Positions 11,275 to 14,822 of a stretch of 64,000 bases of DNA are shown piece after piece. This stretch comes from Inhella proteolytica (lineage in GTDB: Bacteria > Pseudomonadota > Gammaproteobacteria > Burkholderiales > Burkholderiaceae_C). Where the stretch lies: contig NZ_JAEDAK010000002.1 in NCBI RefSeq assembly GCF_016093275.1, positions 186,001 through 250,000 of the forward strand, read 5' to 3'. A program made the position numbers and the translations under genes. How positions within the stretch are numbered: position 1 is the first letter of the stretch; each line of letters begins with the position of its first letter. The notes under the pieces are model-generated. The model saw only the letters and a program-made list of their open reading frames with translations, was not told the DNA's origin and ran no database searches.

Positions 11275-12759
11275 ATGAACTTCAACGACTACCGCCGCCA
11301 CGACGCCACCGCCCTGGCGGCCCTGGTGCAGGCCGGCAAGACCACGCCGCTGGACCTGCTGGTGACGGCCCTGACGCGTCTGCAGACCGTGCAGCCCAGG
11401 CTCAACCCGGTGGCGCGCCTGCTGGAAAAGGAAGCCGGCGCACAGATCGAAGCCGGCGTGCACGGGCCCTTTGCCGGCGTGCCCTTCCTGCTCAAGGACG
11501 CCGGCCACGACGTGCAGGGCGTGCCCACCAGCTACGGCAGCCGCGCCATTCGCACCCAGGCCGCGCAGGACAGCCACTACACCCAGCGCTGCCGCGGCGC
11601 CGGCCTGGTGATCTTCGGCAAGACCAACAGCCCGGAGCTGGCGCTGAAGGGCGTGACCGACCCGGCCGCCTACGGACGCACGTCCAACCCCTGGGACCCG
11701 GGCCGCACGCCGGGCGGCAGCAGCGGCGGCGCGGCCGCGGCGGTGGCCGCCGGCATCGTGCCCATGGCCGGTGGGGGGGACGGTGGCGGCTCCATCCGCA
11801 TTCCCGCCGCCTGCTGCGGCCTGGTGGGCCTACGCCCCTCGCGCGGGCGCATCTCGGAAGGCCCGGGCTTCGGCGAGGTCTGGCTTGGCTGCAACAGCCA
11901 GGGCGTGATCACCCGCTCGGTGCGCGACAGCGCCGCCATGCTGGACATCCTCTCCGGCCCCGAACCCGGCGACCCCTTCGTCATCGCCCCGCCGCCCGCC
12001 CCGTTTGCAGAGCTGGCGATGCAGGCACCGCGGCGCCTGAAGATCGGCTGGAGCACGGCCTCGCCCATCGGCACGGAAGTGCACCCCGAGGCAGTGGAGG
12101 CCGTGCAGCGCACGCTCACGCTGCTGCGCCGGCTCGGCCATGAGGTGACCGAGGCCGAGCCCGAAATCGACGGCGCGGCGCTGGCGCAGACCTTCCTGCA
12201 GATGTACTTCGCGCTCATCCCGGCCGCGATCGACCAGGCCGTGGCGCAGGGCGCGCGTGCGGCGGACTTCGAGCCGCTCACGCGCATCATGGCCACGCTG
12301 GGCCGCGGCCAGAGCGCCGCCCAGGTGGTGACGGTGCTGGACCAATGGAACGGCTTTGCACGTGCGCTCGGTCGCTACCACCAGCAGTTCGACCTTTACC
12401 TCACGCCCACGCTGGCCTCGCCCCCGGTGCCGCATGGCACCGGCGACCCACCCCCGCTGCAGATGATGGTGCTCAAGGCCCTGCGCGCCAGCGGCCTGCT
12501 CGGCCTGCTCTCCCGCCTGGGCCTGCTGGACGCCGCGGTGGCGCAGATCGCGCGCGACAACCTGCGCCATGTGCCCTTCACCCAGCTGGCCAATGTGACG
12601 GGCACCCCCGCCATCAGCCTGCCCCTGCACTGGACGACCGAAGGCCTGCCCCTGGGCGTGCAGTTCCATGGCCCGCATGGCAGCGAGGCCCTGCTGCTGC
12701 AGCTGGCGACCCAGCTGGAACAGGCCCAGCCCTGGTTCGAGCGCTTCCCGCGCGAATGA
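11275..12759 (+). CDS. Amidase signature family hydrolase
   Basis: A 494-residue amidase with the complete Ser-cisSer-Lys triad: Lys74 in FLLKDAG, the cis-Ser in GGSSGG at 147-152, and nucleophile Ser173 in GGGSIRIPA. This family hydrolyses amide bonds in compounds such as fatty-acid amides, aryl amides or glutamine-like donors; the C-terminal part (HVPFTQLANVTGTPAISLPL) matches the 6-aminohexanoate-cyclic-dimer/fatty-acid-amide branch better than GatA. No gatB or gatC is adjacent, which supports a catabolic role. No signal peptide. It begins 85 nt after the GMC gene and is followed by the next gene after 9 nt. Confidence 0.9.
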   Translation: MNFNDYRRHDATALAALVQAGKTTPLDLLVTALTRLQTVQPRLNPVARLLEKEAGAQIEAGVHGPFAGVPFLLKDAGHDVQGVPTSYGSRAIRTQAAQDSHYTQRCRGAGLVIFGKTNSPELALKGVTDPAAYGRTSNPWDPGRTPGGSSGGAAAAVAAGIVPMAGGGDGGGSIRIPAACCGLVGLRPSRGRISEGPGFGEVWLGCNSQGVITRSVRDSAAMLDILSGPEPGDPFVIAPPPAPFAELAMQAPRRLKIGWSTASPIGTEVHPEAVEAVQRTLTLLRRLGHEVTEAEPEIDGAALAQTFLQMYFALIPAAIDQAVAQGARAADFEPLTRIMATLGRGQSAAQVVTVLDQWNGFARALGRYHQQFDLYLTPTLASPPVPHGTGDPPPLQMMVLKALRASGLLGLLSRLGLLDAAVAQIARDNLRHVPFTQLANVTGTPAISLPLHWTTEGLPLGVQFHGPHGSEALLLQLATQLEQAQPWFERFPRE

Positions 12760-12768
12760 GAGGGTGAG

Positions 12769-13218
12769 ATGCAGCCCCTGCCCCCCGAGATCCAGCAACT
12801 GCTGCGCAACGGCCAGACCCTGGAAGCGATCAAGCGCCTGCGCGAGCTCACCGGCCTGGGCCTGAAGGAAGCCAAGGATGCGGTGGACGGCGGCCGCCTG
12901 CCCACCGCCGCCGCGCCGCGCCCGGCAGCCCAAGGGCCGGTGGGCGACGCCGTGCACCAGGCCTTGCAGCAGGGCCAGCTGATCGAGGCCATCCGCCGGC
13001 TGCGCGAGCAGCAGCCCGGGCTGGGGCTGAAAGAGGCCAAGGAGCGCATCGAGGCGCATCTGGCCCAGCACCCGGCGCTGAAGGCGCTGGCCGAGCAGGC
13101 CTATCTGGAGCGCCGCAACGCCACCCTGGCCACCCTGGGGCGCTGGGCCTTCACGGCGGCGCTGCTGGCGCTGGCCGCCTGGGCGGCCTGGCGTTTGCTG
13201 CGCCCGCCGCTGGACTGA
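12769..13218 (+). CDS. Membrane-anchored protein with two bL12-C-terminal-like repeats
   Basis: A 149-residue protein with two copies of a module resembling the C-terminal domain of ribosomal protein bL12: residues 16-42 (TLEAIKRLRELTGLGLKEAK...) and 70-97 (LIEAIRRLREQQPGLGLKEAK...). The GLGLKEAK core, which contacts translation factors in bL12, is intact in both. A proline/alanine linker (about 43-58) separates them, and residues 124-145 form a transmembrane helix with a short tail, so the repeats probably face the cytoplasm (topology inferred). It starts 9 nt after the amidase stop, in the same operon. Function unknown; interaction with translation factors or simply a helical protein-protein module are both possible. 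Confidence 0.75.
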   Translation: MQPLPPEIQQLLRNGQTLEAIKRLRELTGLGLKEAKDAVDGGRLPTAAAPRPAAQGPVGDAVHQALQQGQLIEAIRRLREQQPGLGLKEAKERIEAHLAQHPALKALAEQAYLERRNATLATLGRWAFTAALLALAAWAAWRLLRPPLD

Positions 13219-13241: not shown

Positions 13242-13517
13242 TCAAGCTCTTGAGAGCCGCCAGCCCAGCGGCAGCACCATCAGGCCCAGCATCAGGGCGT
13301 AACCCAGCAGCTTGCCCTCGACGCCCCAGAGCGCCAAGGCGGCGATCTGCCCGAGCAGCGCCGCCGCCGCAGCCTCCCCCCACAGCCGCTTCCAGCCCGC
13401 CGCCCGCAGGGGCTGACGCCACACCAGGCCCTTGGCCAGCAGCACCAGTAGCGCCGCCACCGCCAGGGGCGCAGCAAGGAAATTGGCGAGATGCCAGAAC
13501 AAGGTCAAGAAGGACAT
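13242..13517 (-). CDS. Small hypothetical membrane protein divergent from hemA
   Basis: A 91-residue hydrophobic protein with about three membrane helices (residues 5-28, 48-64, 68-86) and few charged residues: a signal-anchor-like N terminus MSFLTLFWHLANFLAAPLAV, then AAAAALLGQIAALALWGV and LLGYALMLGLMVLPLGWRL. I do not recognise the family. Only 27 bp separate its ATG from the divergent hemA start, so the two promoters must overlap the coding regions. It converges on the bL12-like gene with a 23-bp gap. Coding status is supported by the consistent membrane topology and the tight intergenic spacing. Confidence 0.65.
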   Translation of the reverse strand: MSFLTLFWHLANFLAAPLAVAALLVLLAKGLVWRQPLRAAGWKRLWGEAAAAALLGQIAALALWGVEGKLLGYALMLGLMVLPLGWRLSRA

Positions 13518-13544
13518 GGGGTCAAAATTTTAGAATCCGCCCCA

Positions 13545-14822
13545 ATGCCCGTTTTCGCCCTCGGCCTCAATCACGCGTCCGCCCCCCTGGCGCTGCGTGA
13601 AAAGCTGGCCTTCAACCCCGATCAACTCGTGCCCCAGGTGCAGGCGCTGCAGCAGCGTCTGCAGGCCGCCGCCCCCATGGCAAAGGCCGAGGTGGCCCTG
13701 CTGTCCACCTGCAACCGCACCGAGCTCTATGTGGCTGGGCCCTCGGGCTTGGCCGAGGTGGCGCAGGGCTGGATGGCCGAGCGTGCCGGGCTGGAAAGCA
13801 GCACCCTCAGACCCCACACCTACGTGCAGCGCGACAGCGATGCCGCGCGTCATGCCTTTCGCGTGGCCTCGGGGCTGGACTCCATGGTGCTGGGCGAACC
13901 GCAAATCCTCGGCCAGTTCAAGCAGGCCGTGCGCGAGGCCGACGCCGCCGGCACGCTGGGCAGCACCCTGCACCAGCTGTTCCAGCGCAGCTTCCAGGTG
14001 GCCAAGGAGGTGCGCACCAGCACCGAGATCGGCGCCCACTCGATCTCCATGGCGGCAGCCGCCGTGCGCCTGGCCGCCCAGCTGTTCGAGGACTTGAAGC
14101 GCGTGCGGGTGCTGTGCATCGGTGCCGGCGAAATGATCCAGCTCGCCGCCACCCACTTCGCCGCCCAGCATCCGGCCGCCTTGGTGATTGCCAACCGCAC
14201 CGCCGCGCGCGCCGAGCAGTTGGCCCAGCACCTGGGCGGCGACACGATGCCGCTGGCCGAAGTCAGCACCCAGTTGCACCAGTTCGACGCCATCATCAGC
14301 TGCACCGCCAGCCAGCTGCCGCTGATCCTCAGGCCCATGGTGGAGCGCGCGCTGAAGGCGCGCCGCCGCCGCCCGATGTTCCTGGTGGACCTGGCCGTGC
14401 CACGCGACATCGAACCCGCCGTGGGCGAGTTGAACGACGCCTACCTCTACAGCGTGGACGACCTCTCCGCCCTGGTGCAGACCGCCGGCGAGAAGCGCCA
14501 GGCCGCCGTGGCCCAGGCCGAGGCCATCGTCGACCAAGGCGTGCAGGGCTTTGCGCAGTGGCTGGACCAGCGCCACTCGGTGCCGCTGATCCAAGCCCTG
14601 CAGCACCAGGTGGACGACTGGCGCCAGCAAGCGCTGGCGCGTGCGCGCCGCCAACTGCAGCGCGGCGAGGCCCCCGAGGCCGCGCTGGACGCCTTTGCCC
14701 ACCAGTTCAGCCACAAGCTGATGCATGGCCTGCTGGCCGAACTGCATGGCGCCCAGGGCGAGGAGCGCCGCCAGCTCGAGGCCTTGATCCAGCGCCTGTT
14801 TCTGCGCACCCACGAGCGATGA
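13545..14822 (+). CDS. hemA: Glutamyl-tRNA reductase
   Basis: A 425-residue enzyme reducing glutamyl-tRNA(Glu) to glutamate-1-semialdehyde, the first committed step of C5-pathway haem synthesis. It has the N-terminal GLNHASAPL motif, the catalytic cysteine at residue 56 in LLSTCNRTEL, GLDSMVLGEPQILGQ, the NADPH-binding segment RVLCIGAGEMIQLAA, and a C-terminal dimerisation helix. The ATG at 13545 is the position that puts the conserved GLNH motif at the usual distance from the N terminus; codons upstream would add an 18-residue tail. A TAGAAT hexamer lies only 9 nt before the ATG, so a very short leader is possible. An 79-bp hairpin-rich gap separates it from the next gene. Confidence 0.96.
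   Translation: MPVFALGLNHASAPLALREKLAFNPDQLVPQVQALQQRLQAAAPMAKAEVALLSTCNRTELYVAGPSGLAEVAQGWMAERAGLESSTLRPHTYVQRDSDAARHAFRVASGLDSMVLGEPQILGQFKQAVREADAAGTLGSTLHQLFQRSFQVAKEVRTSTEIGAHSISMAAAAVRLAAQLFEDLKRVRVLCIGAGEMIQLAATHFAAQHPAALVIANRTAARAEQLAQHLGGDTMPLAEVSTQLHQFDAIISCTASQLPLILRPMVERALKARRRRPMFLVDLAVPRDIEPAVGELNDAYLYSVDDLSALVQTAGEKRQAAVAQAEAIVDQGVQGFAQWLDQRHSVPLIQALQHQVDDWRQQALARARRQLQRGEAPEAALDAFAHQFSHKLMHGLLAELHGAQGEERRQLEALIQRLFLRTHER

Follow-up and report, generated by a model that had tools for sequence, protein, structure and literature searches.

A tandem hairpin protein related to the factor-binding helices of bL12, with a probable C-terminal membrane anchor, in Inhella proteolytica

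Results

Gene and immediate neighbours

The window, that is, the whole stretch of Inhella proteolytica DNA that was analysed (64,000 nucleotides), contains at 12769–13218 on the forward strand a gene (ATG start, stop codon included) for a protein of 149 amino acids, delimited from the list of open reading frames and the sequence. The product carries two hairpins of ribosomal-stalk type and, probably, a membrane helix, and is called the hairpin protein below. Directly upstream lies an accessory neighbour, an amidase family gene (PF01425; 11275–12759, forward strand; assigned by Pfam and synteny), the stop codon of which (12757–12759) is situated 9 nt ahead of the ATG of the hairpin gene. The intervening 9 nt (12760–12768, forward strand) hold a Shine–Dalgarno-like element read from the sequence (GAGGGTGAG), the placement of which suggests that translation of the hairpin gene is coupled to the amidase gene. 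A promoter scan of the hairpin gene returned zero sites, yet zero were also expected by chance.

The hairpin gene is followed by a gene for a hydrophobic protein of 91 amino acids (13242–13517, reverse strand), which had no match in Pfam or NCBIfam and is found beside hemA or the amidase gene in all five other genomes of the genus that were examined. This gene overlaps the start of hemA (13491–14822, forward strand; glutamyl-tRNA reductase by domain match) on the opposite strand.

Profile matches and predicted anatomy

For the hairpin protein as a whole, PF00542 (Ribosomal_L12, the bL12 C-terminal domain) gave 46.5 bits (E 4.7e-12; cut-off 25.9). The match falls into two stretches, and the best one spans profile positions 13–36 of 67 only. 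When the genome was searched in six frames with PF00542, the locus gave two separate matches (30.4 and 17.3 bits, the latter below the cut-off); the full-length bL12 of the same genome, located on another contig, gave 99.7 bits across positions 1–67. With TIGR00855, the bL12 equivalog, the hairpin protein reached 37.2 bits against a cut-off of 84.4. Identification of the 12769–13218 product as a second bL12 was rejected because the PF00542 matches are partial and the TIGR00855 score is far under the cut-off. The N-terminal dimerisation and uL10-binding domain of bL12 is absent: the first hairpin begins at residue 18, and no other Pfam family scored above its cut-off. No match was obtained to the EF-Ts core domain (PF00889) among families up to E 1, or to TS-N/UBA in Pfam. 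EAD11 (E 3.7e-4, below cut-off, residues 7–30 only) was taken as a side match. The protein was also matched by NF005269 (PRK06771; E 2.8e-12, 47.2 bits, below the cut-off of 90), and among 17 aligned relatives, 12 were matched by PF20593 (DUF6793) at E up to 1 (best 1.8e-7); a search of 60 genomes of the phylum gave no PF20593 match at E 0.01. Between the two repeats, identity is 54% across 35 aligned positions.

The structure was predicted with AlphaFold2 from a 17-protein alignment (mean pLDDT 92.0, pTM 0.56). Helices were predicted at residues 6–13, 17–28, 32–41, 60–67, 71–81, 87–100 and 102–144, and strands nowhere. Repeat 1 (residues 6–41, 12784–12891, forward strand) comprises the first three helices, with the bL12-like hairpin at 18–41; modelled alone from a 23-module alignment, it gave the same three helices (pLDDT 92.0). 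Repeat 2 (residues 60–100, 12946–13068, forward strand) comprises the next three, and its turn QQPGLGLKEAK has one additional residue (Pro). Each repeat is thus predicted to be a three-helix unit consisting of a short leading helix and a hairpin that matches alpha4–alpha5 of bL12. The preliminary description had claimed two repeats resembling the bL12 C-terminal domain: two PF00542 stretches are indeed present, but the likeness covers the helical hairpin only. A complete bL12 C-terminal fold, for which structure prediction had been proposed as the check, was not predicted; two complete domains in tandem were rejected, since no strands were predicted and the profile is covered only across the hairpin.

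The repeats are joined by a Pro/Ala-rich linker, as had been described (residues 42–59, 12892–12945, forward strand). This linker diverges freely and is modelled with the lowest confidence in the protein (block means 76 and 73). A long helix (residues 102–144, 13072–13200, forward strand) forms the juxtamembrane part and the C-terminal anchor, with its core at 126–144 (13144–13200). This core is the best 19-residue membrane segment of the protein (Wimley–White octanol sum −8.2 kcal/mol; Kyte–Doolittle mean 1.49, just short of the cut-off of 1.6); the anchor of a homologue from the genus clears the Kyte–Doolittle cut-off at 1.78. A single C-terminal segment followed by a five-residue tail is the layout of a tail anchor, marginal on one scale, and the transmembrane helix announced after the repeats is probable.

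Conservation and selection within the genus

A syntenic homologue was found in one of the five other genomes (G003), with 48% identity across 142 amino acids in one comparison and 52% in another. The shared gene order is ALDH, a Pfam-less protein, GMC, amidase, hairpin gene, 91-amino-acid protein, hemA, GNAT, prfA and prmC; ALDH, GMC, amidase, hemA, GNAT and prfA were assigned by domain match, and prmC is our own label. The hairpin gene is absent from the hemA region in the other four genomes (G001, G002, G004, G005), each of which gave bL12 as its sole match at E 0.01. The amidase gene is absent along with it from 10–11.5 kb around hemA in G001 and G002, as well as around hemA in G004 (just 3.6 kb upstream covered), and in G005 the amidase gene adjoins the gene for the 91-amino-acid protein, the hairpin gene being missing between them. 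The hairpin gene is dispensable within the genus, and the case for a functional operon with the amidase gene is weak.

Substitution rates were compared with G003, that is, for one genome pair and in short stretches, so that the pattern is rough: dN was 0.27 and dS 1.60 in repeat 1 (ratio about 0.17), 0.28 and 1.20 in repeat 2 (about 0.23), 0.82 and 2.28 in the linker, 0.82 and 0.58 in the juxtamembrane part, and 0.99 and 1.17 in the anchor. Both repeats look constrained, and the sequences of linker and anchor appear to drift; such a pattern would be expected if two binding heads sat on a tether that is free to change. These values bear on the idea that the gene is what remains of a bL12 duplication, degenerate or neutral and without function, which would suit a small, accessory gene missing at the locus in four of five other members of the genus. 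Given the apparent constraint on both repeats in the single pair compared, a leading helix and an anchor that are foreign to bL12, and the recurrence of the same architecture across several phyla (see below), this origin is considered highly improbable.

Kinship of the hairpin

A module profile was built from 23 modules of our choice. Against the sequences of the PDB, bL12 chains were the best 15 of the 24 matches listed (top 1dd3, E 5.5e-9), and the two alignments inspected fall on the hairpin; designed TPR proteins were also matched (2.8e-4). A single-sequence search of the PDB gave a weak match to EF-Ts (1aip, E 0.72), and the module profile was therefore compared with EF-Ts N-termini. EF-Ts was present in 26 of 26 genomes; 25 loci were returned, 18 of which were caught by our pattern. 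Comparison of the modules with these 18 N-termini by hhalign gave a score of 28.0 across 22 columns (probability 80.5, P 1.3e-5), which was reached by none of 400 column shuffles (best 18.3); EF-Ts windows from column 31 onward scored 17.8 or less. The bL12 profile scored 22.0 against EF-Ts, above all 400 shuffles (best 20.7). HU was tried as a look-alike hairpin with a control profile of nine sequences (the pattern having caught 9 of 30 HU loci) and was rejected as dissimilar by profile (score 14.2, probability 2.5, under the best of 200 shuffles at 18.5). Plain HMMER with the module profile listed one of the 25 EF-Ts loci; as Pfam had no TS-N/UBA match either, the link to EF-Ts rests on the profile–profile comparison.

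The EF-Ts of the same genome reads VAELRARTDAPMMECKKAL (L180) and that of a genome of the same family VAELRAKTDAPMMECKKAL (L188). Most of the other 16 follow V-K-[ED]-L-R-x-x-[TS]-G-x-G-M, from which L180 and L188 differ at the lysine and at the G-x-G turn.

Fold comparison with Foldseek returned nothing at E 0.001 or better; the hairpin of repeat 1 was superimposed on M. pneumoniae bL12 at 1.0 Å over 22 columns (Foldseek E 3.0). With VIA-align, bL12 was found at Z 2.1–3.0 (repeat 1 module on 1ctf: Z 3.0, rmsd 2.6, 36 residues) and an HU chain at Z 3.2. The module superposed best on a designed mini-binder and on eukaryotic 60S chains, unrelated three-helix proteins at Z 5.1–5.9, and these superpositions were taken as common three-helix geometry. 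Since unrelated proteins reach Z 5.9 and HU 3.2, fold scores alone are no proof of kinship with bL12, and it is the sequence profiles that carry the argument. EF-Ts and UBA are absent among the fold matches listed, from which neither can be excluded, and three helices are predicted per module.

By computation, the hairpin is related to the factor-binding helices of bL12 and fits the hairpin profile of EF-Ts. The resemblance to bL12 noted earlier is thus significant in the PF00542, PDB and hhalign comparisons, and it lies in the factor-binding helices. An EF-Tu-binding motif common to bL12 and EF-Ts was reportedly described, to go by the title, by Wieden et al. in 2001. In an excerpt of one study, the bL12 C-terminal domain is stated to have on helices 4 and 5 a conserved site of positive charge, through which it binds IF2, EF-Tu, EF-G and RF3 (PMC6753160); in an excerpt of another, mutation sites in bL12 and EF-Tu are stated to have been picked by analogy with the EF-Ts/EF-Tu complex (PMC5770553). 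What the present profiles add is that detached, anchored hairpins fit the same bL12/EF-Ts profile.

Basic residues of the putative factor-binding site

Residue numbering and the single-residue roles at positions 69, 70, 73, 80 and 84 follow what we take to be the factor-binding positions of bL12. Both repeats in the window have I, K/R, R, L and K at these positions, and likewise most relatives. In total 75 modules were collected; one, cut short, could not be anchored, 74 were tabulated, and 29 lack the word KEAKDAVD, although they may still contain other search words such as KEAKERIE. In these 29, the R73 position is R in 28 (a column conditioned, like 68 and 83, by the anchor pattern, which requires A/T at 68, R/M at 73 and A/T/C/V at 83), 22 modules have K or R at K70, and at K84 there are 23 with K and one with R. 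The 29 modules are non-independent: near copies (L128/L129 and L051/L059/L064) were counted separately, and several modules were found by similarity to the 12769–13218 protein. Against a reading in which the hairpins grip a GTPase, the basic residues could instead be kept for hairpin stability.

Distribution and architectures

Some match at E 0.01 was obtained in 58 of 60 genomes of relatives. They returned 29 loci, 25 of which were bL12 by sequence check; the four others encode tandem (G003, G045) or single (G057, G018) hairpins. A PF00542 search of the class gave a match in 323 of 369 genomes and at least two matches, of whatever kind, in 37 (own genome included). At the level of the order, a match at E 1e-7 was found in 7 of 300 genomes, the own genome included; the other six, inspected by eye, were four tandems with a C-terminal hydrophobic end, one tandem with the hydrophobic end at the N-terminus and one single hairpin. 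Such a patchy, accessory distribution, together with a hairpin devoid of the ribosome-binding N-terminal domain, would be in keeping with a brake or decoy: once expressed, the protein would vie with ribosomal stalks for translation factors at the membrane and depress translation. EF-Tu and bL12 are present in great excess in each cell, and a decoy would therefore need high expression; this role is considered rather improbable.

A scan of named genomes, biased by its search pattern, left 80 loci from 134 relatives among the matches listed, 41 of which were non-bL12 by our reading. Among these matches listed, with the near copies L043/L048 counted separately, 31 of the 41 hairpin proteins have a membrane segment (Kyte–Doolittle mean at least 1.6), 15 have two modules, and 14 are both tandem and anchored. 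At the same Kyte–Doolittle cut-off, control neighbouring ORFs, which were chosen by length and include spurious ones, gave 102 of 382, and 22 of 129 for those shorter than 220 amino acids. The tandem anchored form occurs in Rhizobacter, Corallococcus, Anaerolineales, Paludisphaera and Nonomuraea, among others, and anchored hairpin proteins in Actinomycetota, Chloroflexota, Planctomycetota, Myxococcota, Acidobacteriota and others (phyla assigned by us). Anchoring is thus computed to be recurrent. The preliminary description had singled out the double, anchored form: both the tandem and the anchor are found, but with 14 of 41 in several phyla the form recurs and is far from unique.

In six proteins of Acidobacteria and Chloroflexi (L039, L052, L110, L066, L037, L050), a zinc ribbon, recognised by its cysteine pattern, is combined with one or two hairpins and a membrane segment, together with an NHL or PQQ_2 beta-propeller, which would be outside the cell if the hairpin is inside. 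In L131 (G204) and L036, tandem hairpins have a hydrophobic anchor at the N-terminus.

PADLOC gave no match for the hairpin gene, and a plasmid search gave none at E 1e-3; a phage search returned one unannotated record with a 37-residue match. Membership of a defence system or mobile element was rejected on these results. Three loci on viral contigs (L132:4764–5213, L133, L134) encode small proteins with single hairpins, two of the loci encoding the same protein; in PHROGs, all ten families listed are of unknown function, phrog_5819 being matched at E 2e-8. By this sequence likeness, phages may carry a factor-binding hairpin.

The genes around 46 loci were grouped into families. The largest (20 members at 20 loci) consists of the hairpin proteins themselves; one family is common to L043, L048 and L112, three are confined to three Nonomuraea loci, and 32 join just two loci. 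No translation gene recurs as a neighbour across the 46 loci among ORFs of at least 110 amino acids; short neighbour genes would be missed with this choice by length. These findings bear on a wider reading, in which the hairpin serves as a small helical module for interactions in general; of bL12 ancestry, it would now bind a non-translation partner, or its own copy, at the membrane. The hairpin occurs in very different proteins, together with zinc ribbons, TPRs or beta-propellers (PQQ_2, NHL) and with the anchor at either terminus, no translation neighbour recurs, and helical-hairpin geometry is commonplace; moreover, the hairpin lacks the sheet under which one of its faces lies in bL12, which would leave that face free to self-associate. 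Against this stand the basic, GTPase-facing positions, mostly kept even in modules without KEAKDAVD, and the EF-Ts match, which exceeds both the shuffles and HU. On account of the varied architectures and the want of a recurrent neighbour, a non-translation partner is nonetheless nearly as likely as a translation factor.

Discussion

Proposed mechanism

The reading that we favour, tentatively and at somewhat less than an even chance, is that the hairpin protein is a tail-anchored inner-membrane protein whose two cytosol-facing hairpins bind a translational GTPase, EF-Tu being the likeliest, and retain it at the membrane. In its favour stand the hairpin-restricted PF00542 match, the EF-Ts profile match, the basic positions that are kept, the lower dN/dS of both repeats and the larger share of membrane segments than among the control ORFs. 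Weighing against it are the missing complete bL12 fold, the low fold scores, the PDB match to designed TPR proteins, the lack of a recurrent translation neighbour and the dispensability of the gene in the genus. The cytosolic orientation is the one we infer from an anchor at the C-terminus and no N-terminal signal, and EF-Tu would be the most likely translation partner because bL12 and EF-Ts both use the hairpin for it. The hairpins would act as detached bL12/EF-Ts grips on the acidic outer helix of the GTPase, in the likeliest case helix D of EF-Tu. With its two modules joined by a flexible Pro/Ala linker, the protein might gain avidity or gather two factor molecules, an arrangement that may be likened to the several stalk arms on the ribosome. 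The purpose could be to supply ternary complex locally where membrane proteins are synthesised, or to withhold EF-Tu under stress.

Relation to known systems

With the bL12 C-terminal domain (PF00542/TIGR00855) the hairpin protein shares the alpha4–alpha5 helices, the TGLGLKEAK turn and the basic factor-binding positions. Unlike bL12, it has no beta strands, no third helix of the C-terminal domain and no N-terminal dimerisation domain, and it possesses an additional leading helix, two copies of the module and a membrane anchor. The N-terminal (TS-N) hairpin of EF-Ts is alike in the 22-column profile match (for example, the segment of L187 against AIKRLRELTGLGLKEAKDAV); unlike EF-Ts, the hairpin protein has no EF-Ts core domain and is not an exchange factor. 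Uncharacterised families with the hairpin are NF005269 and DUF6793 (PF20593), for which no function is described in the Pfam and NCBIfam libraries. Unnamed anchored hairpin proteins likewise combine one or two hairpins with a membrane segment; they differ in that the anchor is sometimes N-terminal and in that some have, in addition, a zinc ribbon or, past the membrane segment, a beta-propeller. The domain itself is known, and hairpin proteins already stand in family libraries as hypothetical (NF005269, DUF6793); no paper on anchored or tandem hairpin proteins was found in the openly licensed literature, by titles and abstract openings.

Significance

With these sequences filed by domain libraries as carriers of a ribosomal protein domain, a class of uncharacterised and mostly anchored proteins stays hidden. 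More broadly, the 24-residue hairpin of bL12 and EF-Ts might be a portable grip for translational GTPases, mounted singly or in tandem on membrane proteins across many phyla, some with a beta-propeller past the membrane segment, so that the membrane would be a site, off the ribosome, where translation factors are gathered or from which they are reported on; this generalisation is regarded as unlikely. As the hairpin is common to bL12, EF-Ts and the anchored proteins, a single small soluble fragment would suffice to test the idea. Should the hairpin have kept its grip on EF-Tu or a sister GTPase, it would give bacteria a means to place translation factors at the membrane or to withhold them there.
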